Assembly: GCF_030531065.1 (NCBI RefSeq)
Contig: NZ_JAUNOQ010000017.1
Coordinates: forward strand, 1 to 41,596
From: Phascolarctobacterium sp.
GTDB taxonomy: Bacteria; Bacillota; Negativicutes; Acidaminococcales; Acidaminococcaceae
DNA: 41,596 nucleotides
Direction of reading: 5' to 3'
In this document: positions 5,163 to 34,945 of the stretch, one piece after another
Numbering within the stretch: the stretch's first letter is position 1
Layout of the letters: every line of letters starts with the position of its first letter
The notes under the pieces: generated by a model
Seen by the model: the letters and a program-made list of their open reading frames with translations, nothing else
Told to the model about the DNA's origin: nothing
Database searches by the model: none
Program-made: the position numbers and the translations under genes

Positions 5163-7463
5163 ATGCAGTTTATTTATGCAGGAATGGTTTGCTTTATGCT
5201 GGGCTTGTGGCTGGGCCTGCAGCCCGCCGCTGCCTTCGCCTCGTGGCCGCTTTTGTCAGGCGCGGCCGCGGCGGCGCTGGCGTTAGGCGTGCGGCTGACG
5301 GACGGATGGCGGCGCGGCTTGTGCGTGTGCCTGAGCCTGCTGTTGTTGGGCTGGGGCAACGGCTGCCGCGTAGAACTCAGCGCGGCGCAGCAGCTGGAGC
5401 AGCTTTGGGGACGGCAGGCGGTGGCTTACGGCAAACTGGAGCCTTTAAGCCTGCGGCAGGACACCGGCTATCAAAGCTTTATTTTGCAGTGCGAACAGCT
5501 GCGGCTTGGCGCGGAGCTGCGTCCTTACCGCGGACGCCTGCGGGTCGGTGTGCGGCAAAAGGAAATCCTGCCGGAGTGCGGCAGGCTGACGCTGGCCGGG
5601 CAGCTGGAGCCTTTGACGGGTTTTCGCAATCCCGGCGCTTTCGACAGCGAGCAGTATCATCGGGTCAACGGCTTGGGCGGCAGGCTGAAAAACGCAAAGT
5701 TGCTGGCCGCGCAGGAAGAAGCCGGGTGGCGCGATAAGCTGGAGCTGCTGAATTTGCGCTTGTGCCGCCGTTTGGAGCGGGGTGCGGGCGGCGAAGCGGG
5801 AGCGGTGCTAGGCGGTATGCTTTTGGGCGGCAGCGGTCGCTTGGACGATGAAACGCGAGAAGTTTTTATTGCTAACGGGTTAGCGCATTTGCTGTCGGTT
5901 TCCGGAACTCATTTAGTGCTGCTGGCCAGCCTGCTGTCCGCGTTACTCAAACCGCTGCCGCTTAAGTGGCGCAGGCTGCTGTTGGTGCTGCTGCTGTGCG
6001 CTTACGCAGCTTTGTGCGGCGGCAGGCCGCCGGTGCTGCGGGCGTTGCTCATGAGTACTGTTGTGCTGTTCGGCGGCGCGGGGGCCGAACGGGGACGCTT
6101 GTTGTGTTTGACGGCGATGAGCTTGCTGCTGTTCAAGCCGGTGTGGCTTGCGGATATTGGCTTTCAGCTTTCCTTCGGCGCGGCGGCGGGCCTGGTGTGG
6201 CTGCTGCCGGCCTGCCGGCGCTGCTTGCCTGCCTGGCTGCCGACTGTTATCAGCGAAGGCGCGGCCGTGACCTTGGCGGCGCAGCTGGGCGTACTGCCAT
6301 TCATTGTAGGTTATTTTCATCAGCTTTCGGTGATTTCTCTGGTCAGCAATATTGTGCTGGTGCCGCTTTTGGAGCTGGCGGCTTTGCTGGGGCTGGCAGG
6401 ATGCGCGCTGCCCTTGGGCGATTATTTATTAGCGGCGGCCGGTTTTTTAGTGCGCCAGGCGCTGACCCAGGGCGCGTGGCTGAGCTGCCTGCCCGGCAGC
6501 GTACTGACGGTGGGGGCGCTGCCGCTGTGGTGCGCCGTTATTTATTATGGCTTGTTAGCGGTGTGGGCCGATTGGCCCTGCCTGCAATTTTTGCGCAATT
6601 GGGAAAGGCGCTGCTTGATGACAGGCTGTGTTTTACTTTTAAGCGGCGCGCTGCTGTGGCAGCAGTATGGGCCGCGTCCTTTGGCGGCGTATTTTCTGGA
6701 CGTGGGGCAGGGAGATTGCGTCGTCGTCGTTACGCCGTCGCGTAAAGTAGCGGTGTACGATACCGGCGGCTTGAGCGGGATCGATACGGGCGCTAAAATA
6801 GTCGCGCCGTTTTTGCGTAGTTTGGGGTTTAGCGCAATCGATTTACTTATCGTCAGCCATTACGATTTTGACCACGCAGGCGGCGCGGCAGGACTTTTGC
6901 GGCAAATGCCGGTTAAAGAAATTGTTTTACCTCAGGAACGGCTGACGGAAGCAAGCGCCGCGATTCGTCAAAAAATAATCGCGGCGGCGGGTGCAGGCAA
7001 AATATCTTTAGCTAGGCAGGGGCGCAGCTGGCAGTTTGAGGATAGCTTGCTGCGCCTGGCCGTGCCTGCGGAGCAAGTTGTCGGCAACGAAGCCAGTACG
7101 CTGGCGGAACTTTTCAGCCCTTACGGCAGTTTGCTGCTGACGGGCGATATGGGCGAGGAACGGGAGCAAAATTTGGCATTGGGCTGCTATACGGTGCTGA
7201 AGGCCGGGCATCACGGTTCAAAATACAGCAGCAGCGCCGAATTTTTGCAGCAGGTACAGCCTTTAGTAACGGTAATTTCCTGCGGCCGCGGCAATCGCTA
7301 CGGCCATCCGCATGCAGAAACTATGGAACGCTTGCGGGCGGCGGGCAGCCGCGTACTACGCACGGACGCTATGGGCTGCATTAAGATAGAGTTCGCGGAG
7401 GAACTGCGCTGCTGGGCGTATGACGGGAAAGCGTTCAGAAGATTGCAGAATAATAACTTATGA
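5163..7463 (+). CDS. comEC: ComEC/Rec2 DNA internalisation channel
   Basis: This 766-residue polytopic membrane protein carries transforming single-stranded DNA through the inner membrane. The N-terminal DUF4131/OB-like part is followed by the competence domain (around residues 210-480), with many Leu-rich membrane helices. The C-terminal metallo-beta-lactamase-like domain starts near residue 507 (LDVGQGDCVVV), has the metal motif HYDFDHAGG near 565 and a later HHGS. All three parts are present, so the gene looks intact. ATG follows an AGGAGG site. Its stop overlaps the region of the next gene's possible start, suggesting that read-through into the downstream toxin-antitoxin pair and holA is normal. 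Confidence 0.93.
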   Translation: MQFIYAGMVCFMLGLWLGLQPAAAFASWPLLSGAAAAALALGVRLTDGWRRGLCVCLSLLLLGWGNGCRVELSAAQQLEQLWGRQAVAYGKLEPLSLRQDTGYQSFILQCEQLRLGAELRPYRGRLRVGVRQKEILPECGRLTLAGQLEPLTGFRNPGAFDSEQYHRVNGLGGRLKNAKLLAAQEEAGWRDKLELLNLRLCRRLERGAGGEAGAVLGGMLLGGSGRLDDETREVFIANGLAHLLSVSGTHLVLLASLLSALLKPLPLKWRRLLLVLLLCAYAALCGGRPPVLRALLMSTVVLFGGAGAERGRLLCLTAMSLLLFKPVWLADIGFQLSFGAAAGLVWLLPACRRCLPAWLPTVISEGAAVTLAAQLGVLPFIVGYFHQLSVISLVSNIVLVPLLELAALLGLAGCALPLGDYLLAAAGFLVRQALTQGAWLSCLPGSVLTVGALPLWCAVIYYGLLAVWADWPCLQFLRNWERRCLMTGCVLLLSGALLWQQYGPRPLAAYFLDVGQGDCVVVVTPSRKVAVYDTGGLSGIDTGAKIVAPFLRSLGFSAIDLLIVSHYDFDHAGGAAGLLRQMPVKEIVLPQERLTEASAAIRQKIIAAAGAGKISLARQGRSWQFEDSLLRLAVPAEQVVGNEASTLAELFSPYGSLLLTGDMGEEREQNLALGCYTVLKAGHHGSKYSSSAEFLQQVQPLVTVISCGRGNRYGHPHAETMERLRAAGSRVLRTDAMGCIKIEFAEELRCWAYDGKAFRRLQNNNL

Positions 7464-9347: not shown

Positions 9348-11273
9348 TTGACGCTGCACACAATCATGAACAACAAAGATTTACTGTATGTTATTAAACC
9401 TGCACAGCAAACCGAAGAAGCCTTGCGCGAGCTTTTGCTTCAGCATCCGGAAATAAAATTTGTTTCCTTGATGGGCGTGGATTTTGCCGGTAATGATACG
9501 GATGAAAAAATTCCCATGAAGGTTTTTCTGGAAGATATGCGCAGCTTTTTGGAGGGCAGCGCCGCACAGACCGACGGTTCTTCCGTAGTGTTGACGGGCA
9601 TCGCCACGCTGAATAACGCCCGCGTAGATCTGGTAGTAGATAAATCCGTTAATTGGTTTGTAGATTATAATTATGAGCATTTTGACGCGGCTAACGGCAA
9701 AATGATCGGCACGTTGCGCATTCCCTGCTATTTGTTGCACAACGGCAATTTTGTAGATTCCCGTTCTATTTTGAAAAATACGCTGGATTATGTGGAAAGC
9801 GAAATCATGGAGCTCTTTAAAAAGCATCCGGTGATTCCCGGCTTGGAGCACGTTGATCCGGCTGAAATTGAAAAGCTTGTTTTCACCAGCGCTACCGAGC
9901 TGGAATTTTGGGTAAAATCTCCGCGCGAGGACGCTCCCATCGAAGCGCTGTCCTCTTCTCAAATGATGCAGGAGCAATACTGGCAGCGCACCCGCGGCAA
10001 TGTGCGCACAGCTTTGGAACAAACCGTGGAAACCTTGGACCTTTACGGCCTGGAGCCGGAAATGGGGCACAAGGAATGCGGCGGCGTTAAGGGCCAGATC
10101 GACGCAGCCGGTCACATGACCCACGTTATGGAGCAGCTGGAGGTGGACTGGAAGTTTGCCAGCGGCGTACAGACCGGCGATAACGAATTGCTGGCGCGTA
10201 TCATTGTAAAAGAAGTATTCCGCATGAACGGCTTGGAGGTTTCCTTCCAGGCTAAGCCGATTCCCGGCGTGGCAGGCAGCGGCGAGCATACGCATGTGGG
10301 CATGGCCGCAAAAATGAAGAACGGCAAATTCGTCAACCTGTTTTCGCCCAAGAATATGCACGAGGACTTTTTGTCCGCTATCGGCTACGGCGCGTTGATG
10401 GGCCTGCTGAAAAATTACGAGGTTACCAATCCCTTTATTTCCTGCACTATCGATTCGCTGAACCGCTTGAAACCCGGCTTTGAAGCGCCGGTCTGTATCG
10501 TTACCAGCTTGGGCATGAGCCCGGAAAATCCGTCCCGCAACAGAACGATTCTGGCGGGCTTAATCCGCGACCTGGATAACGATAAGGCCACCCGCATCGA
10601 GATGCGTTCGCCGAATCCCTACACCAATACTTATATCGCTTTGGCAGCCTTCTACCTGTCCTGCCTGGACGGCATTAAGGCCTGCGTGGAATCCGGCAAG
10701 GATTTGAAAGCGCTGGAGAAGGAAATTTCCAAGAAAGCAGGCGAGCCCGGCTTCTATCTGGATACCGACCGTCAGTACCGCACTGAGGACGACGTTTTTG
10801 AAGATTTCACTGCGGAAGAACGCAGCAGATTATTCGGCGAGCCTCCCGCTACGGTTTGGGAAAATCTCTGCGCCTTTGATAAATATCCCGAAAAGGTGGA
10901 CGTGCTTACTCAAGGCGGCATCTTGAAGAAGGAATATATCGAATCCTTTAAGCAGGGCGCTTTGACCCGCTGGAAAACGGAGCTGCTGACCCGCTTGATT
11001 CCGGAAAATTATTTAGCGGTTGTCGAAATGAAAAAGCTGCACGACCCGGAAAGCTGCACCGACTGCGATTTGGCGCTGTGGCATAAAATTCAGGCGCTGC
11101 GCGCGAAGCTGGCTAAGGATTCCTTTGAAGAAAAGAGCCTGTTTACCAGCATCCGTAAGGCTATCGCTTCCGAAGATTACGATACGGCTTCCGCTTTGAA
11201 GATTGAAATGGCCAAAGCGGTGGAGGAGCTGAAGGTTCTCTATCACGATTACAAACAAAATATTATTGACTGA
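9348..11273 (+). CDS. Glutamine synthetase, long form with C-terminal extension
   Basis: This 641-residue ATP-dependent glutamate-ammonia ligase is longer than the usual 440-470-residue type I enzyme. Type I landmarks are visible in order: the beta-grasp segment (about 36-62), TELEFW (183-188), the glutamate-binding region (about 238-252), GSGEHTH (310-316), RLKPGFEAP (about 388) and IEMRSPNPYTNTY (about 420). Residues from about 460 to 641 are a mostly helical extension that I cannot assign. The type III motifs are not seen. TTG at 9348 is preferred because AAGGAG is 11 bases before it; the next ATG at 9366 is too distant. It is a monocistronic unit behind a leader hairpin. Confidence 0.85.
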   Translation: MTLHTIMNNKDLLYVIKPAQQTEEALRELLLQHPEIKFVSLMGVDFAGNDTDEKIPMKVFLEDMRSFLEGSAAQTDGSSVVLTGIATLNNARVDLVVDKSVNWFVDYNYEHFDAANGKMIGTLRIPCYLLHNGNFVDSRSILKNTLDYVESEIMELFKKHPVIPGLEHVDPAEIEKLVFTSATELEFWVKSPREDAPIEALSSSQMMQEQYWQRTRGNVRTALEQTVETLDLYGLEPEMGHKECGGVKGQIDAAGHMTHVMEQLEVDWKFASGVQTGDNELLARIIVKEVFRMNGLEVSFQAKPIPGVAGSGEHTHVGMAAKMKNGKFVNLFSPKNMHEDFLSAIGYGALMGLLKNYEVTNPFISCTIDSLNRLKPGFEAPVCIVTSLGMSPENPSRNRTILAGLIRDLDNDKATRIEMRSPNPYTNTYIALAAFYLSCLDGIKACVESGKDLKALEKEISKKAGEPGFYLDTDRQYRTEDDVFEDFTAEERSRLFGEPPATVWENLCAFDKYPEKVDVLTQGGILKKEYIESFKQGALTRWKTELLTRLIPENYLAVVEMKKLHDPESCTDCDLALWHKIQALRAKLAKDSFEEKSLFTSIRKAIASEDYDTASALKIEMAKAVEELKVLYHDYKQNIID

Positions 11274-11302: not shown

Positions 11303-11345
11303 AAAAGCTGATGAGAAAGCTAAAACTTTCTTGTCAGCTTTTTTG
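11303..11345 (+). terminator. Terminator of glutamine synthetase
   Basis: An approximately 16-bp imperfect stem, with arms 11303-11320 and 11327-11342, runs into a T-run. Confidence 0.8.
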
Positions 11346-11375
11346 TTTGGCGGAAAAATTACAAATGATAAGGTC

Positions 11376-11403
11376 TTGCGGGGGGGTACAAGTATGATAC
11401 AAT
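11376..11403 (+). promoter_or_regulatory. Autotransporter 1 promoter with G7 tract in the spacer
   Basis: TTGCGG (11376-11381) and an extended -10 TGATACAAT (TACAAT at 11398-11403) are separated by 16 bases. A run of seven G (11380-11386) overlaps the -35 and the spacer. The same layout occurs before autotransporter 2 at 31659-31686. Gain or loss of one G would change the -35/-10 distance. Confidence 0.65.
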
Positions 11404-11530
11404 AAAATACAACAAAGGGGGCGCAATTATTTCCCCAAATAATTTGGGATTTTGATGCGTGAGTTTTGGTTTGCGCAGTATGCGCTGCTGCAGGCCGCAC
11501 ACATAAAAATTTTTATGAGGAAAGGGTTGA

Positions 11531-11905
11531 ATGGATATGAAACGAAAACAAATTTTAGCGAAAGCTATAACCTTGGGGTTGCTGTTGGCGATGCCGTGCG
11601 GCGCGTGGGCAGAGACGAAAATAAATAATATCGTTACTTTGGGAAATGAAACTACATACAGCGACGGCTTGTTGGTTGAGAAGAGCGGAAATATACAAGG
11701 CAATAGCTATGATTTAAAAGTGGATAGTACATTTCCTTACAATAAAATTCTTTTGGGTGTTGTAAATGAAGGAACTATAACAGGCGTGGGCACTTTATCT
11801 GCTGGAAGCGTTTATAATAATGGGGGAATTTTAGAAGTCAAAAATTTGCAACTTGCAGGTGCTAAGTACGAGAAAAATTGGCCGCAGCACTATTCGCTTT
11901 ATTAA
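11531..11905 (+). CDS. Autotransporter 1, N-terminal fragment (signal peptide), frameshifted
   Basis: This 124-codon frame starts with a clear Sec signal peptide (about 28 residues; basic KRKQ, a hydrophobic core, cleavage after GAWA) and the beginning of a passenger with short Gly/Asn-rich repeats. It ends at a stop 28 bases after a run of five A (11873-11877). Deleting one A restores the frame and joins it smoothly to the following 903-codon frame. Together they would encode about 1010 residues from 11531 to 14564. The signal peptide and 5' leader match those of autotransporter 2. The break could be a real inactivating mutation, phase variation or a sequence error. Confidence 0.75.
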   Translation: MDMKRKQILAKAITLGLLLAMPCGAWAETKINNIVTLGNETTYSDGLLVEKSGNIQGNSYDLKVDSTFPYNKILLGVVNEGTITGVGTLSAGSVYNNGGILEVKNLQLAGAKYEKNWPQHYSLY

Positions 11906-14564
11906 TGAGGGGACAACAACTATTGGCGGCGGTACTTTAGTCGGATGGACGTATAACGATGAAGGCGCTGTTTTAAATATTACTGGCGATACAATTTTTA
12001 AAAATAGAGAAGAAGAGCCGAGTGGAGAAGCCTTAACGAATATATCTGGTAGTATTATAAATATAAGCGACGGCGTTACGGTAACAACAGAAATGTTTAA
12101 TAACGGTACTAGAGACAATACTAATGCTACTCTTAACGCCGCTAACGCTAAAATTTTTATCAATGGCAATAGAGGTAAACTTAATAATTATGGAACAGCA
12201 GAAATCGGGACTTTAGAATCTGATGGGAAACTTGTTGGTTATGGTGATCCTCGTGTAGATAATTTTGGTTCATTAACTGTTAATCATAAGCTGGCTTCCG
12301 ATTTAAGTAATCATGGTACGTTTATTTACAATGGAACTGAAACGATAACTGGTCTTATTATGAATTATGACAAGATGTATGTTACTAGCGGAGAGTTAAA
12401 AGTTATTGGGGATTTTCACATCAGCGGGGAAGAGGCATTAGTAGGAGCTAATGCAAATGAAAATCTCAATAAATTGAGCGTTAGTGGGGAATTGACTGTT
12501 GGGTCAAAGAGGGATGAAAAGAAAACTCTACTGACTGTTGATGAGCAAATACAGGCATCAAGTATTGAAGCTTATGGCGATATTAAAACACAGAAACTCA
12601 CTACAGATAGTTTTAATGTCTTTTATGTTAATAGTTTAAACTATGGGGAAAATGCTGCGTCTATAGAAGTAGATGAATTAGTTGTTAGTGGTAAAAACGC
12701 AACAAGTAATATAGGTGCTAAAATAGATGGCACAGGAGCTGAAATAAAATATGGCCCTGCCAAAGTGATTGTGCATGATAAATTGGTTGTAAACGAAAGT
12801 AATACGCTTAACAATTACGGGCAGTTGCTGTTTGATGGAGATAGCGCCGTTATTAGCGGCGACGGGATTATTGAAAATAAGGGTGAAAAGCTTGATACAT
12901 ATTTACAAAAAAACAATATATACGGCGTTATTGCTAAAAACGGAGCCGGTGAAAAAATCAAGGAGCTTACCATTGAGAGCACTTTGAATAATACCGGCAT
13001 CGTTGCCGTCGAAACTTTAAATGTTGCTAACGGCTACGACGATACTTTTGCGACCAGCGATAAATCCAGCAAAGAAACTTTTATGGTGGACAATCTTAAT
13101 GTTCTAGCAGATGGTAATTTTAACTTGAAGCAAGAAGCATATGTATTGAAAAATGTTGGAGTGGGAGCTGATGCAGAATTAACGGCCGCGGGTGCAGTTA
13201 GCGATGTAGAATCCGTTGCTTTAGCTGACGACGCAACTTTTGAAACTGAATCTCTTGCTATGGCCGACAGCGGCGCTGTTACCAGCGACGGCGGTTCTTT
13301 GACCGCAAAGGCCATGAGCGGCGAAAGTTTGACTTTTAATTTGCAATCCGATAAGGAAGAACAAATTAACGTAACGGAGTTTACCGGCAATGATTTAAAA
13401 ATCAATGTGGCTTCGCTGACGCCCAACCAAGTAGTAATTGACAAAATGAACGGCAGCGGAATAACGATTAACGGCAACAGCGATATCACCGACAGCTTTG
13501 CTTCCGACAACATTGAAGCAGGGCTGCAATCTTTAGCTTACGCCGCGTCGATTAACGAGCAAAGCGGCGACCAGGGTAGAAAAGTTGCGTCCCCGGCAGG
13601 CAAAATTTTAGGCCCGACGGAAGCTATGACCGACGCTAATAATAAAATTATTACCTCCAGCGTGAAGGAAGGCGTCAACCCCGCTAACGAGGGCATCAGC
13701 GAGATGGCGAGCATCGCGCTCATGACCTGGCGTCAGGAAAATAACGACATGAACAAGCGCCTGGGCGAGCTGCGCGACAGCGCGGGCGAGCACGGCGTAT
13801 GGGTGCGCATGACGCGCGGCGAAGCTAAGTATGGCAACCAAAATATTAAAAATCAGTATAACGCTTATCAATTAGGCTACGATGAAAAATTGAGCGTTGA
13901 TAAGCGCTGGACCGTGGGCGCGGCGCTGACCTATACGGACGCGGAAAGCAGCTTTAGTTACGGCAAGGGCGAAAACAAGCACAAGGGTCTGGCCGTTTAC
14001 GGCAGCCGCCTGAACGACGACGGCAGCTTTATTGATTTAATCGCCCGCTACGCGCGTCTGGAGCATGACTATGAAGTATACGGCGGCGCGGGCAAAGGGG
14101 ACTTTGATACCAACGGCTACAGCCTGAGCGCGGAATACGGCAAGCGCTTTACGCAAAAGAGCGGCTTGTGGATTGAGCCGCAGGTAGAGCTGACTTACGG
14201 CAGAGTAAGCAGCGGCGAGTATCTTACGAATAACGGCGTCAGAGTGCGGCAGGAGGGCATGGACAGCGTGGTAGGCCGATTGGGCTTCGCTTTAGGCAAA
14301 AATTTGGCGCAAGGCAAGGGCAACGTGTACCTGCGCGCGTCGTACCTGTACGATTTCGACGGCGAGACGGACGTGCGTTACAGCTATGGCATACAGAACA
14401 AACGCTTTGAGCAAGACCTCGGCGGCGGCTGGTGGGAGGTCGGCGTAGGCACGAACATCAACCTGAGCGAAGCAAGCCACTTATACTTTGACGTAGAAAA
14501 AACTTACGGCGGCGACGTGGCAACGCCGTGGCAATGGAACGCCGGCGTGCGCTGGAGTTTCTAA
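11853..14564 (+). CDS. Autotransporter 1, passenger and beta-barrel (3' part of a broken gene)
   Basis: This open frame holds the rest of the passenger (to about nucleotide 13690), rich in short beta-helix-type repeats with Asn, Gly and Thr, and a C-terminal type V secretion beta-barrel of about 280 residues ending in the canonical terminal Trp-Ser-Phe. The barrel would insert into the outer membrane and export the passenger. The frame has no ribosome site or signal peptide of its own: the true start is at 11531, in another frame, separated by a one-base shift at the A5 run 11873-11877. The first part of the frame (11853-11872) is out of frame with the real protein. The barrel DNA 13821-14473 is identical to that of autotransporter 2. 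Passenger function is unknown; adhesin is the usual guess. Confidence 0.8.
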   Translation: MQVLSTRKIGRSTIRFINEGTTTIGGGTLVGWTYNDEGAVLNITGDTIFKNREEEPSGEALTNISGSIINISDGVTVTTEMFNNGTRDNTNATLNAANAKIFINGNRGKLNNYGTAEIGTLESDGKLVGYGDPRVDNFGSLTVNHKLASDLSNHGTFIYNGTETITGLIMNYDKMYVTSGELKVIGDFHISGEEALVGANANENLNKLSVSGELTVGSKRDEKKTLLTVDEQIQASSIEAYGDIKTQKLTTDSFNVFYVNSLNYGENAASIEVDELVVSGKNATSNIGAKIDGTGAEIKYGPAKVIVHDKLVVNESNTLNNYGQLLFDGDSAVISGDGIIENKGEKLDTYLQKNNIYGVIAKNGAGEKIKELTIESTLNNTGIVAVETLNVANGYDDTFATSDKSSKETFMVDNLNVLADGNFNLKQEAYVLKNVGVGADAELTAAGAVSDVESVALADDATFETESLAMADSGAVTSDGGSLTAKAMSGESLTFNLQSDKEEQINVTEFTGNDLKINVASLTPNQVVIDKMNGSGITINGNSDITDSFASDNIEAGLQSLAYAASINEQSGDQGRKVASPAGKILGPTEAMTDANNKIITSSVKEGVNPANEGISEMASIALMTWRQENNDMNKRLGELRDSAGEHGVWVRMTRGEAKYGNQNIKNQYNAYQLGYDEKLSVDKRWTVGAALTYTDAESSFSYGKGENKHKGLAVYGSRLNDDGSFIDLIARYARLEHDYEVYGGAGKGDFDTNGYSLSAEYGKRFTQKSGLWIEPQVELTYGRVSSGEYLTNNGVRVRQEGMDSVVGRLGFALGKNLAQGKGNVYLRASYLYDFDGETDVRYSYGIQNKRFEQDLGGGWWEVGVGTNINLSEASHLYFDVEKTYGGDVATPWQWNAGVRWSF
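13821..14473 (+). repeat. 653-bp barrel segment identical to 34202-34854
   Basis: By direct line-by-line comparison this segment is base-for-base identical to the same segment of autotransporter 2, in the same orientation and 20,381 bp apart. Outside the segment, synonymous differences appear at once (13820 C versus T, 14474 A versus G). Confidence 0.95.
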
Positions 14565-31658: not shown

Positions 31659-31686
31659 TTGTCGGGGGGGACAAACGTGCTATAAT
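31659..31686 (+). promoter_or_regulatory. Autotransporter 2 promoter with G7 tract in the spacer
   Basis: TTGTCG (31659-31664) and extended -10 TGCTATAAT (TATAAT at 31681-31686) are separated by 16 bases. Seven G (31664-31670) overlap the -35 and spacer. Total element length (28 bases) and layout equal those of the autotransporter 1 promoter. Confidence 0.68.
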
Positions 31687-31745
31687 GAAGAAAAGGGTGG
31701 AAGTTTTTTGTAAAGGCTTCTACTGAAGGTTAGTGCTTTCCTTCT

Positions 31746-31795
31746 CATACTTTTTCGTAAAGGCACGACCTGTGCCCTTTAGGGTAAAAAGTATG
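31746..31795. repeat. Large imperfect inverted repeat in the autotransporter 2 leader
   Basis: Perfect 10-bp arms CATACTTTTT (31746-31755) and AAAAAGTATG (31786-31795) enclose a second, nearly perfect stem (AAAGGCAC with GTGCCCTTT). No T-run follows, so it is not a normal terminator on the + strand. Confidence 0.7.
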
Positions 31796-32130
31796 CAAAA
31801 AGAGCCTTTAGCCGCTTGCCGGATTCCGCCGCCTAGCAGTTGCGTCCGCATAGGGAGACGGACGCTTAAAAGTTCGGAAAACTAGCGAAAGATAGCTCGC
31901 CGCTCCTCGCAGACGAAGTACGTTGCGAAGTACTACCGCAGTCTGTGCAAACAAAGCTTGCTTGCGCATCCGGCGTGCGTTCCGGTCTGCGCGGCGCGTG
32001 CTGGCGTAGGTTTGGATATGCTCCACCTAGTCACCTGCGGTGACAGCCGGCCCACGCCGCTTGGCCTACGGCCAATTCACCTTGCCCTCTAGGAGGGTAC
32101 ATAAGAGGGCGCGTATGAGTTTAACTTCGT

Positions 32131-32180
32131 GCTCCCTCTTAGAGGGAGTTGGCATTTTGCTTGCAAAATGTCTGAGGGAG
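32131..32180. repeat. Palindromic intergenic repeat element
   Basis: GCTCCCTC (32131-32138) pairs with GAGGGAG (32174-32180), with an inner hairpin CATTTTGC/GCAAAATG. A degenerate relative with a TCACC/GGTGA hairpin lies at about 32021-32050. Similar CTCCCTC...GAGGGAG elements are, from memory, widespread in gut Firmicutes; this needs a genome-wide search. Confidence 0.6.
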
Positions 32181-32251
32181 TGTAATAGTCGTTTCCTTGC
32201 GGCAGTACGCCGCACGTATATAAAATTTTATTGATGAAAGGGTGAGGTTGT

Positions 32252-34945
32252 ATGAAACGAAAAGAAATTTTAGCGCGGGCTATAACATTGGGATTACTTT
32301 TGGCTGTGCCGTGCGGCGCGTGGGCGGCGGAATACAATGACCGTATTTCCGGCGCTACCGATAATTATGGCAATGACGTCAAAACTGTGGACGGAACTAA
32401 ATATACGTATGATTTTGGCGGCGACGCTGTTTTGAAAATGGTAGATGCACGTAACACCGGTATCTTTATATCATCAACTGATCAAGTAACAAATAGCATC
32501 ATCATTAAAAATAAATTAGACATTGATATCTCTTATGGTAAAGGTGATACTGGTTATGGTATATTTATAGGTTTAAATCATAATAATGCGCTCATAGATA
32601 GAAGTAAGGGTGGTGATATATCTCTTAAAGTGAATAACGAATCATCAAAAAATTCGTATGGAGCTACTGCGACGGGGATACTTATTGAAGCGAACGATAA
32701 AGATAGATTACTATTCGGTTCAGGCAACATAAGCATAGATGTTACTGATTGTATGCAAAATAAAAGTATAACTGCTTCTGGTGCTGGTATAGAGATTCGT
32801 GGCAGTAATACTGAGGTAAGCGGAGAAAATTTAGGTATTGATATTAAGGTTAAGGGCGCTGTCGGTAATGAGTCTGCGAGCGTTATTGCTAGAGGTATTT
32901 TTGATACCGCACAAGGTGAGAATAATAAAGTTAACTTTGACAGCGTAAATATTAAAGTCTCCGGTGAAAGCGACGGTACGGTTTTTAGCTATGGCATAAG
33001 TGTGGAAGGCAAGGAAAGTATAATCAATATTGCTAACGGCGGCAAAATTGAAGCGGAAGCTAAAAGCACTAAGTCCGGAAATAGTTATGGCATTATAGCG
33101 AGCGCCGGAACGGTAAATTTAGGCGACGGTTCTGCAATTACAGCTAAGAATACGTCTGCTGAAGGTTTAAACATCGGTATTGTGGCTTCGGGAGGTACAG
33201 TAAATGTAGGCAATAATTCTACGATTACCGCTATTGCCGAGGGAGATGTTGACGTTTATAGCGTTTATGCTTATAATTCTTCCAAAGTGAATTTGGGCGT
33301 TACCAAAATAGAAGCGACCAACGCTTCTGTAGGCAGCGAGGCTATGGGTATATATGCTGTCAGTAACTCCGTAGTGAATCTTGCCGGCGGTTCTATTTCC
33401 GGCCAAACGGGAGTAGGCGAAGAATTCGTAGCTATCGAATCTAGAGGGGCGGGCACACAGGTGAACGTTAATGAAGACGGCAAAAATGAAATTGCAATTA
33501 CCGGTACGGTCAGCGCTTTGAATGAAGGCGTAATCAATGTAAATTTGACTACGGCGGATTCGTCCATTACCGGCGTAATTGACGATAATTCCGGTGATTC
33601 CAGCGTCGATAAGAGCGGCAAGATTACTTTAAATTTGTCCGATGGCGCGACGTGGAAGGTGACGGACGACAGTTATGCAACGACTGTCAACTTAGATAAC
33701 GGCGGTAATATAAATTTGTCGCAAGGTAACGCCGACAGCAATTATGTCGCTAGAATAGGCGCTTTGAGCAGTAAAGGCGGCGTTATCAACACCGATAATT
33801 TAACCAATAAGATAAAAGTAGACGATCCTACAGGCATCGAAAGCTTGACCGTACACGGAACCAGCGCAATTACTGATTTGATTGCGCAGAACGAAAAAGT
33901 AAACGCGCAAAGATTGGCGGACGTAGTTATCAATAGCGACGATTCGCTTGAGTATCCTTCCGTAGCGACGCAAATTACTACCGACGCCAGTTCCGTAGCC
34001 GGGGCCTACACCGCCGACGTGGTAGACGGCAAAGTAGTTTTTGCGGAGGAACAGCCCAACGTACCAAACCAAGGTATCAGCGAAATGGCAGCTATTTCGC
34101 TGATGACCTGGCGCCAAGAAAACGACGATATGAACAAGCGCTTGGGCGAGCTGCGCGACAGCGTGGGCGAACACGGCGTCTGGGTGCGCATGACCCGCGG
34201 TGAAGCTAAGTATGGCAACCAAAATATTAAAAATCAGTATAACGCTTATCAATTAGGCTACGATGAAAAATTGAGCGTTGATAAGCGCTGGACCGTGGGC
34301 GCGGCGCTGACCTATACGGACGCGGAAAGCAGCTTTAGTTACGGCAAGGGCGAAAACAAGCACAAGGGTCTGGCCGTTTACGGCAGCCGCCTGAACGACG
34401 ACGGCAGCTTTATTGATTTAATCGCCCGCTACGCGCGTCTGGAGCATGACTATGAAGTATACGGCGGCGCGGGCAAAGGGGACTTTGATACCAACGGCTA
34501 CAGCCTGAGCGCGGAATACGGCAAGCGCTTTACGCAAAAGAGCGGCTTGTGGATTGAGCCGCAGGTAGAGCTGACTTACGGCAGAGTAAGCAGCGGCGAG
34601 TATCTTACGAATAACGGCGTCAGAGTGCGGCAGGAGGGCATGGACAGCGTGGTAGGCCGATTGGGCTTCGCTTTAGGCAAAAATTTGGCGCAAGGCAAGG
34701 GCAACGTGTACCTGCGCGCGTCGTACCTGTACGATTTCGACGGCGAGACGGACGTGCGTTACAGCTATGGCATACAGAACAAACGCTTTGAGCAAGACCT
34801 CGGCGGCGGCTGGTGGGAGGTCGGCGTAGGCACGAACATCAACCTGAGCGAAGCGAGCCATTTATACTTTGACGTAGAAAAAACTTACGGCGGCGACGTG
34901 GCGACGCCGTGGCAATGGAACGCCGGCGTGCGCTGGAGCTTCTAA
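32252..34945 (+). CDS. Autotransporter 2 (type Va secretion), intact
   Basis: This 897-residue protein has a Sec signal peptide (about 1-27, cleavage after GAWA), a beta-helix-like passenger (about 28-600; many GG-T-VN-G repeats such as NIANGGKIEAEA, GTVNLGDGSAITA, GTVNVGNNSTITA) and a C-terminal outer-membrane beta-barrel (about 620-897) ending in WSF. The passenger is exported to the cell surface; its role is unknown, probably adhesion or shielding. The passenger does not resemble that of autotransporter 1, but signal peptide, linker (ISEMA-x-I-x-LMTWRQEN) and barrel do. Transcription comes from a G7-containing promoter. It lies in a segment bounded by 34-bp direct repeats. Confidence 0.92.
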   Translation: MKRKEILARAITLGLLLAVPCGAWAAEYNDRISGATDNYGNDVKTVDGTKYTYDFGGDAVLKMVDARNTGIFISSTDQVTNSIIIKNKLDIDISYGKGDTGYGIFIGLNHNNALIDRSKGGDISLKVNNESSKNSYGATATGILIEANDKDRLLFGSGNISIDVTDCMQNKSITASGAGIEIRGSNTEVSGENLGIDIKVKGAVGNESASVIARGIFDTAQGENNKVNFDSVNIKVSGESDGTVFSYGISVEGKESIINIANGGKIEAEAKSTKSGNSYGIIASAGTVNLGDGSAITAKNTSAEGLNIGIVASGGTVNVGNNSTITAIAEGDVDVYSVYAYNSSKVNLGVTKIEATNASVGSEAMGIYAVSNSVVNLAGGSISGQTGVGEEFVAIESRGAGTQVNVNEDGKNEIAITGTVSALNEGVINVNLTTADSSITGVIDDNSGDSSVDKSGKITLNLSDGATWKVTDDSYATTVNLDNGGNINLSQGNADSNYVARIGALSSKGGVINTDNLTNKIKVDDPTGIESLTVHGTSAITDLIAQNEKVNAQRLADVVINSDDSLEYPSVATQITTDASSVAGAYTADVVDGKVVFAEEQPNVPNQGISEMAAISLMTWRQENDDMNKRLGELRDSVGEHGVWVRMTRGEAKYGNQNIKNQYNAYQLGYDEKLSVDKRWTVGAALTYTDAESSFSYGKGENKHKGLAVYGSRLNDDGSFIDLIARYARLEHDYEVYGGAGKGDFDTNGYSLSAEYGKRFTQKSGLWIEPQVELTYGRVSSGEYLTNNGVRVRQEGMDSVVGRLGFALGKNLAQGKGNVYLRASYLYDFDGETDVRYSYGIQNKRFEQDLGGGWWEVGVGTNINLSEASHLYFDVEKTYGGDVATPWQWNAGVRWSF
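34202..34854 (+). repeat. 653-bp barrel segment identical to 13821-14473
   Basis: Second copy of the exact repeat within the autotransporter beta-barrels, same orientation, 20,381 bp downstream of the first. Confidence 0.95.

Follow-up and report, generated by a model that had tools for sequence, protein, structure and literature searches.

G tracts in the spacers of envelope-gene promoters of a Phascolarctobacterium genome: a candidate family of slipped-strand promoter switches

Homopolymeric tracts in the promoter spacer have been described for porA, fetA and opc of Neisseria (PMC2791445), and the poly-G promoter of Treponema pallidum tp0126 gives the best transcription at a distance of 17 (PMC7864442). 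In the window, i.e. the whole stretch of 41,596 nucleotides of Phascolarctobacterium sp. DNA that we analysed, the initial annotation had placed a comparable device upstream of an autotransporter gene (AT1): seven Gs between, and partly in, the -35 (TTGCGG) and an extended -10, with a spacer of 16 bases. Direct reading of the sequence confirmed all of this. The element at 11376-11403 is TTGC-G7-TACAAGTATGATACAAT, and the surrounding stretch 11370-11410 is AAGGTCTTGC-GGGGGGG-TACAAGTATGATACAATAAAATA. The bases T11376, T, G and C11379 are followed by G7 (11380-11386), TACAAGTATGA and TACAAT (11398-11403), and the -35 overlaps the tract by two bases, its terminal GG. The homopolymer thus lies where it lies in a porA-type promoter, between and partly within the -35 and -10. 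The features of this region are as follows:

11303-11342, + strand: intrinsic terminator of the upstream glutamine-synthetase-like gene, with a 17-pair stem and a T tail
11376-11381, + strand: -35 TTGCGG of the AT1 promoter, in register 4+11, which is common to six other promoters in the genome
11380-11386, + strand: G7 tract, the proposed length-variable element (read from the sequence; homologous tracts are G6-G8 in the same genome and G6-G10 in relatives)
11395-11403, + strand: extended -10 TG-A-TACAAT (TG at 11395-11396, hexamer at 11398-11403; read from the sequence)

The upstream gene (9348-11273) was called glutamine-synthetase-like by reading the sequence, without a family search. Since its strong terminator closes it, AT1 needs a promoter of its own. 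The -35 of that promoter is weak, as only TTG matches the consensus, and for this reason the promoter is absent from a mechanical promoter scan. A whole-genome DNA search with the 34 bases round the tract and the -10 returned 97% identical copies at C4:9910 and C4:99394. No orthologue of the AT1 promoter was found among six congeners; the end of the glutamine-synthetase-like gene alone was matched, in three of the six.

The window contains two autotransporter genes, and the second also stands behind a G7 promoter:

11531-11905, + strand: first part of AT1, 124 aa, with a signal peptide, the frame ending early; 43-49% identical to N-terminal parts of intact paralogues
11853-14564, + strand: remainder of AT1 (passenger and beta-domain) in another frame; PF03797 at 3.4e-41, collinear with an intact paralogue in L012
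31659-31686, + strand: second G7 promoter, with TTGTCG, G7 at 31664-31670, TATAAT at 31681-31686 and a 16-base spacer (read from the sequence)
32252-34945, + strand: autotransporter 2, 897 aa, downstream of the second G7 promoter; PF03797 at 1e-40

Comparison with the intact paralogues placed a frameshift in AT1 at about 11868-11898, after about 113 codons, and the promoter would therefore, in the sequence as assembled, give a truncated product only, whichever state it was in. The frameshift stretch contains a short A5 run. The break may be a true mutation, a second switch or an assembly error. The extended -10 may soften any effect of spacing, and together with the downstream frameshift it weakens the case for a spacing switch at this gene.

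Autotransporter 2 is separated from its G7 promoter by an unusually long leader (31687-32251, about 565 bases), in which several inverted repeats were seen by eye. The final 880 bp of AT1 (13686-14564) are 97% identical to the matching end of 32252-34945, whereas the passengers are unlike, which suggests gene conversion or beta-domain reshuffling.

We examined whether such tracts could be due to chance. A dinucleotide model predicts 4.8 G7 matches for the window, against 2 observed, and G7 as such is not rarer than predicted. Long G runs are nevertheless scarce: G5 occurs 11 times in the window, G6 is absent and G7 occurs twice. Both G7 runs (11380 and 31664) are autotransporter promoter spacers. 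In the whole genome, the pattern GGGGGG-N7..13-TATAAT gave 37 matches on both strands together (a count that includes overlapping starts within longer runs) against 0 for the reversed-pattern control, and the looser GGGGGG-N6..14-TANNNT gave 74 against 19. Chance was rejected on the first of these controls. Across the genome we counted 56 distinct runs of at least seven Gs, fewer than the approximately 200 (both strands) predicted by a first-order model, and about two thirds of the 56 are spacers of G-tract promoters. Of 12 runs of G8 or longer, six lie in G-tract promoters and six inside coding sequences.

The G7 promoter is thus real, but it is not a device specific to AT1, as the element recurs genome- and family-wide in about 37 copies. 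We counted 37 G-tract promoters in the 2.37 Mb genome, two of them in the window; 35 were scored automatically (TTG, G run and -10) and two were counted by hand, namely L148 (TTTACA) and L159 (a copy with an identical core). The results showed that the spacer equals 9 plus the number of Gs in 35/35 scored promoters, which fall into the classes G7/16 (28), G8/17 (6) and G6/15 (1). The non-G bases from the first base of TTG to the -10 total 15 in every one of them, in three flank registers (4+11 in 7, 5+10 in 10 and 6+9 in 18), and in 0/35 did the flanks compensate for an altered G count. The spacer therefore tracks tract length uncompensated around the 17-base optimum, as in porA-type promoters.

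In selected stretches of the same genome, promoters lacking a G run (-35 matching at 5/6 and -10 at 6/6) had a spacer of 17 in 17 cases and of 16 in two, whereas the G-tract promoters in that comparison had 16 in nine cases and 17 in three (Fisher p = 0.002 strict and 1e-4 relaxed, on a smaller subset of these promoters). At Phascolarctobacterium loci, the corresponding non-G-run counts were nine at 17 and four at 16. The commonest spacer is thus 17 in ordinary promoters and 16 in G-tract promoters, so that most of the latter are one base under the usual spacing and the G8 members are exactly at it. The idea that one added G would give the optimal 17-base spacing is therefore well supported. 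A TG precedes the -10 in 22/35 G-tract promoters; an extended -10 usually makes the spacing to the -35 less critical, and the effect of spacing may thus be graded.

A short hairpin lies upstream of, and abuts, the -35 of several 6+9-register promoters (L152, L153, L162, L163, L165-L167, L172, L174 and L180-L182), as in CAAAAGTGC-TCGAT-GCACTTTTG. The stems differ by compensating changes (GTGC/GCAC, GTCGC/GCGAC, TCCGC/GCGGA), and the hairpin may be a bidirectional terminator or an insulator that travels together with the promoter.

Alternatively, the tract could be a constant component of a promoter or operator specific to the lineage, either recognised by a regulator or having a DNA shape that prefers a 16-base spacer, with the surface genes forming one regulon and the length being no switch. 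We consider this unlikely. The G7 and its adjoining bases are strongly conserved (TTGT/C..ACAAG, loosely dyad) and 16 is the modal spacer in several genera, as such an operator would have it, but the half-site bases differ (ACAAG, ACGAG, TACGG, CAGAT, ACTTC) while the spacing rule holds without exception.

The products downstream were assigned by Pfam and by homology to tested copies, and about 32 of the 37 promoters precede envelope genes:

14 promoters: classical autotransporters (Pfam/homology)
3 promoters: YadA-type adhesins with SLH domains (Pfam/homology)
2 promoters: SLH porins (Pfam/homology)
1 promoter: TonB receptor (Pfam/homology)
1 promoter: ShlB/FhaC transporter (Pfam/homology)
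6 promoters: initial sugar transferases (Bac_transf), the first genes of polysaccharide operons (Pfam/homology)
1 promoter: sulfatase-family membrane enzyme (Pfam/homology)
4 promoters: signal-peptide or lipoprotein-like products
1 promoter: type III Mod, followed by Res (Pfam)
4 promoters: a GNAT protein, a dynamin/Sel1 protein, one unknown and one promoter at a contig end

Control of a surface-exposed product, as at porA, is thus indicated by the downstream Pfam families, AT1 itself being frameshifted. The type III mod-res operon stands behind a G7 promoter in L311 (G000:C4:165000-176000), and its mod is a candidate phase-variable methyltransferase under transcriptional control.

It seems very improbable that this distribution reflects shared ancestry only, i.e. 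that the surface genes were duplicated along with one G-run promoter and that the one-G differences are neutral homopolymer drift. There are clear recent duplicates (L150/L151, L009/L010 and L149/L180), and homopolymers mutate anyway. However, the element is common to unrelated families (autotransporters, sugar transferases, type III Mod and porins), it is present in other genera too, and it occurs in three unlike registers with the same sum.

The six coding runs of G8 or longer (G8-G10) are in four acyltransferase-3 genes, a YrbL-like kinase gene and the start of a glycosyltransferase gene (ATG-TAC-A-C8). As assembled, three of the six genes are off frame at the run and three are open, and four of the runs lie within polysaccharide operons headed by a G-tract promoter. 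These are surface-glycan genes, for polysaccharide or LPS, with long runs, some of them off frame, as expected of reading-frame contingency loci. From this pattern alone, slipped-strand variation in this organism appears likely on grounds independent of the promoters. The fixed-operator explanation is also at odds with the finding that every G8+ run outside the promoters sits in a typical contingency gene. G7 runs outside the promoters occur in a type I specificity subunit gene and, for example, in NAD-kinase-like and Tgt-like genes. In L298, two glycosyltransferase regions of one polysaccharide operon (6114-6128 and 11249-11260) have ATGTACAC7-8, the poly-C run sitting directly after the start codon.

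Collection-wide, pattern matches were mainly from Phascolarctobacterium, Anaerovibrio, Selenomonas and Succiniclasticum, with scattered single matches elsewhere; the P. faecium type strain DSM 14760 has the element. The pattern was found in 36/59 genomes of the Phascolarctobacterium family, in which the genome of the window has the highest count (37; others up to 29). This family also tops the class-wide counts, two other families being modest (f12 up to 8, f23 up to 9). Tracts of the same promoters with conserved flanks range from G6 to G9 in the relatives, and from G6 to G10 over all homologous tracts. The tract and spacer tallies of the relatives are approximate, since some automatic -10 placements (spacers of 19-20) were mis-assigned; by eye, these sites fit a spacer of 16 with a TATTAT -10 or a nearer TTG.

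The number of Gs was unequal in 31/83 site pairs with at least 80% identical flanks, the pairs being non-independent. The clearest examples are the orthologues L261/L103 (G7/G8; 1600 bp with 69 mismatches and two gap positions), L259/L272 (G7/G8; 182 bp with one mismatch and one gap) and L221/L249/L233 (G7/G7/G9 at 93% identity). Tract length thus varies among close sequences as in porA-type promoters, the sequences compared coming from different species or from paralogues rather than from one clone. A fixed operator accords poorly with such uncompensated shifts within nearly identical flanks, but it does accord with the many orthologous groups in which tract length is unchanged. Viral contigs were tried as a source of population variants and rejected: most of their 11 matches belong to one phage sequence family unrelated to the element.

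In Phascolarctobacterium L084, L099, L102, L134 and L142, G-tract promoters stand ahead of genes for small helix-turn-helix regulators (XRE-like by sequence). Many G-tract promoters in draft genomes of relatives (L254, L272, L276, L278, L204 and L226) are a few hundred bases from contig ends, as if the loci were repeated or population-variable.

We conclude that the G7 tract probably serves as a ruler of variable length in a promoter made phase-variable by strand slippage, one of a family of about 37. This is based on the spacing rule, the preference of ordinary promoters for 17, the functional bias, the tract differences among relatives and the frame-broken poly-G polysaccharide genes. In the proposed mechanism, a G gained or lost in replication would shift the distance between -35 and -10 one for one (G6/15, G7/16, G8/17) and thereby alter the strength of sigma-70-type initiation, the majority of copies, one base short of 17, being weak and the minority at 17 strong. 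As almost every copy stands before a surface-protein gene, a polysaccharide operon or a DNA methyltransferase gene, individual cells would come to differ in their envelopes. We infer that slippage is frequent enough within populations and that a spacer of 16 rather than 17 alters expression.

Several observations count against a switch. MutS and MutL are intact, so that loss of mismatch repair was rejected as a cause of tract instability, and intact repair also suits a fixed operator. The G7 is short, and 22/35 promoters have the TG of an extended -10. The lengths are narrowly distributed (28 G7, 6 G8, 1 G6), and many orthologous groups keep their length, as a fixed architecture would. A review classes tracts of 6G-8G as mutable, at 1e-7 to 1e-5 per division, and those above 7G as hypermutable (PMC4235727). 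The G7 tract thus belongs to the mutable class and is not clearly hypermutable, and G7 promoters would switch slowly and G8 promoters faster.

We give about even chances to a broader reading, in which this commensal-type member of the Negativicutes has a transcriptional phasome of very large size. About 37 promoters would share one slippery G-tract ruler set one base below the optimum; poly-G/C frame switches inside the polysaccharide operons that they head, and a type III methyltransferase possibly switching other genes, would add further layers and give combinatorial surface variation. If so, slipped-strand promoter tuning, hitherto known mainly from host-restricted pathogens, would be a principal route by which an entire diderm Firmicutes lineage found in gut samples varies its surface. 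The code leading from G count to spacer to expression class would be readable from sequence and could be scored in existing metagenome reads, and the promoters would form a natural library of about 37 for how spacing sets strength. Heterogeneous polysaccharides and adhesins would be predicted, with relevance to gut phage and immune selection.

The initial annotation knew of no such description in Negativicutes, and our search of the open-access literature agreed with this, finding no paper that links Negativicutes with homopolymeric phase variation and no description of so many G-run promoter switches in one genome. New here are the number of promoters involved, the lineage and the combination with reading-frame runs; the principle is already known. 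Of the features that define porA-type promoters, the four that can be read from sequence (tract position, spacer rule, surface product and tract-length variation) were all found, and, as far as can be told from sequence, the element acts like a promoter switch of the porA/tp0126 type. In porA, fetA and opc of N. meningitidis, as here, a G/C run occupies or adjoins the promoter spacer of a surface gene and its length sets the spacing of the -10 (PMC2791445, PMC4235727). There, however, individual genes are concerned and their runs are longer (e.g. 12G, 11C and 9C in a phasotype table, PMC4235727), whereas here about 37 promoters with G6-G8, as candidate switches, occur in one genome. T. pallidum likewise has a poly-G run separating the -35 from the -10, at an outer-membrane protein gene (tp0126), and several such surface genes per genome, but its lineage is unrelated, its switch has been shown with reporters in E. 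coli and by length assays in vivo, and its tpr tracts lie near the start site, outside the spacer. Campylobacter jejuni has runs of at least 7 G/C in surface-glycan genes, comparable to the six G8+ runs here in acyltransferase, glycosyltransferase and kinase-like genes; its tracts are mostly in reading frames (23/29; PMC4965091), whereas the majority of the long runs in the present genome are in promoter spacers.
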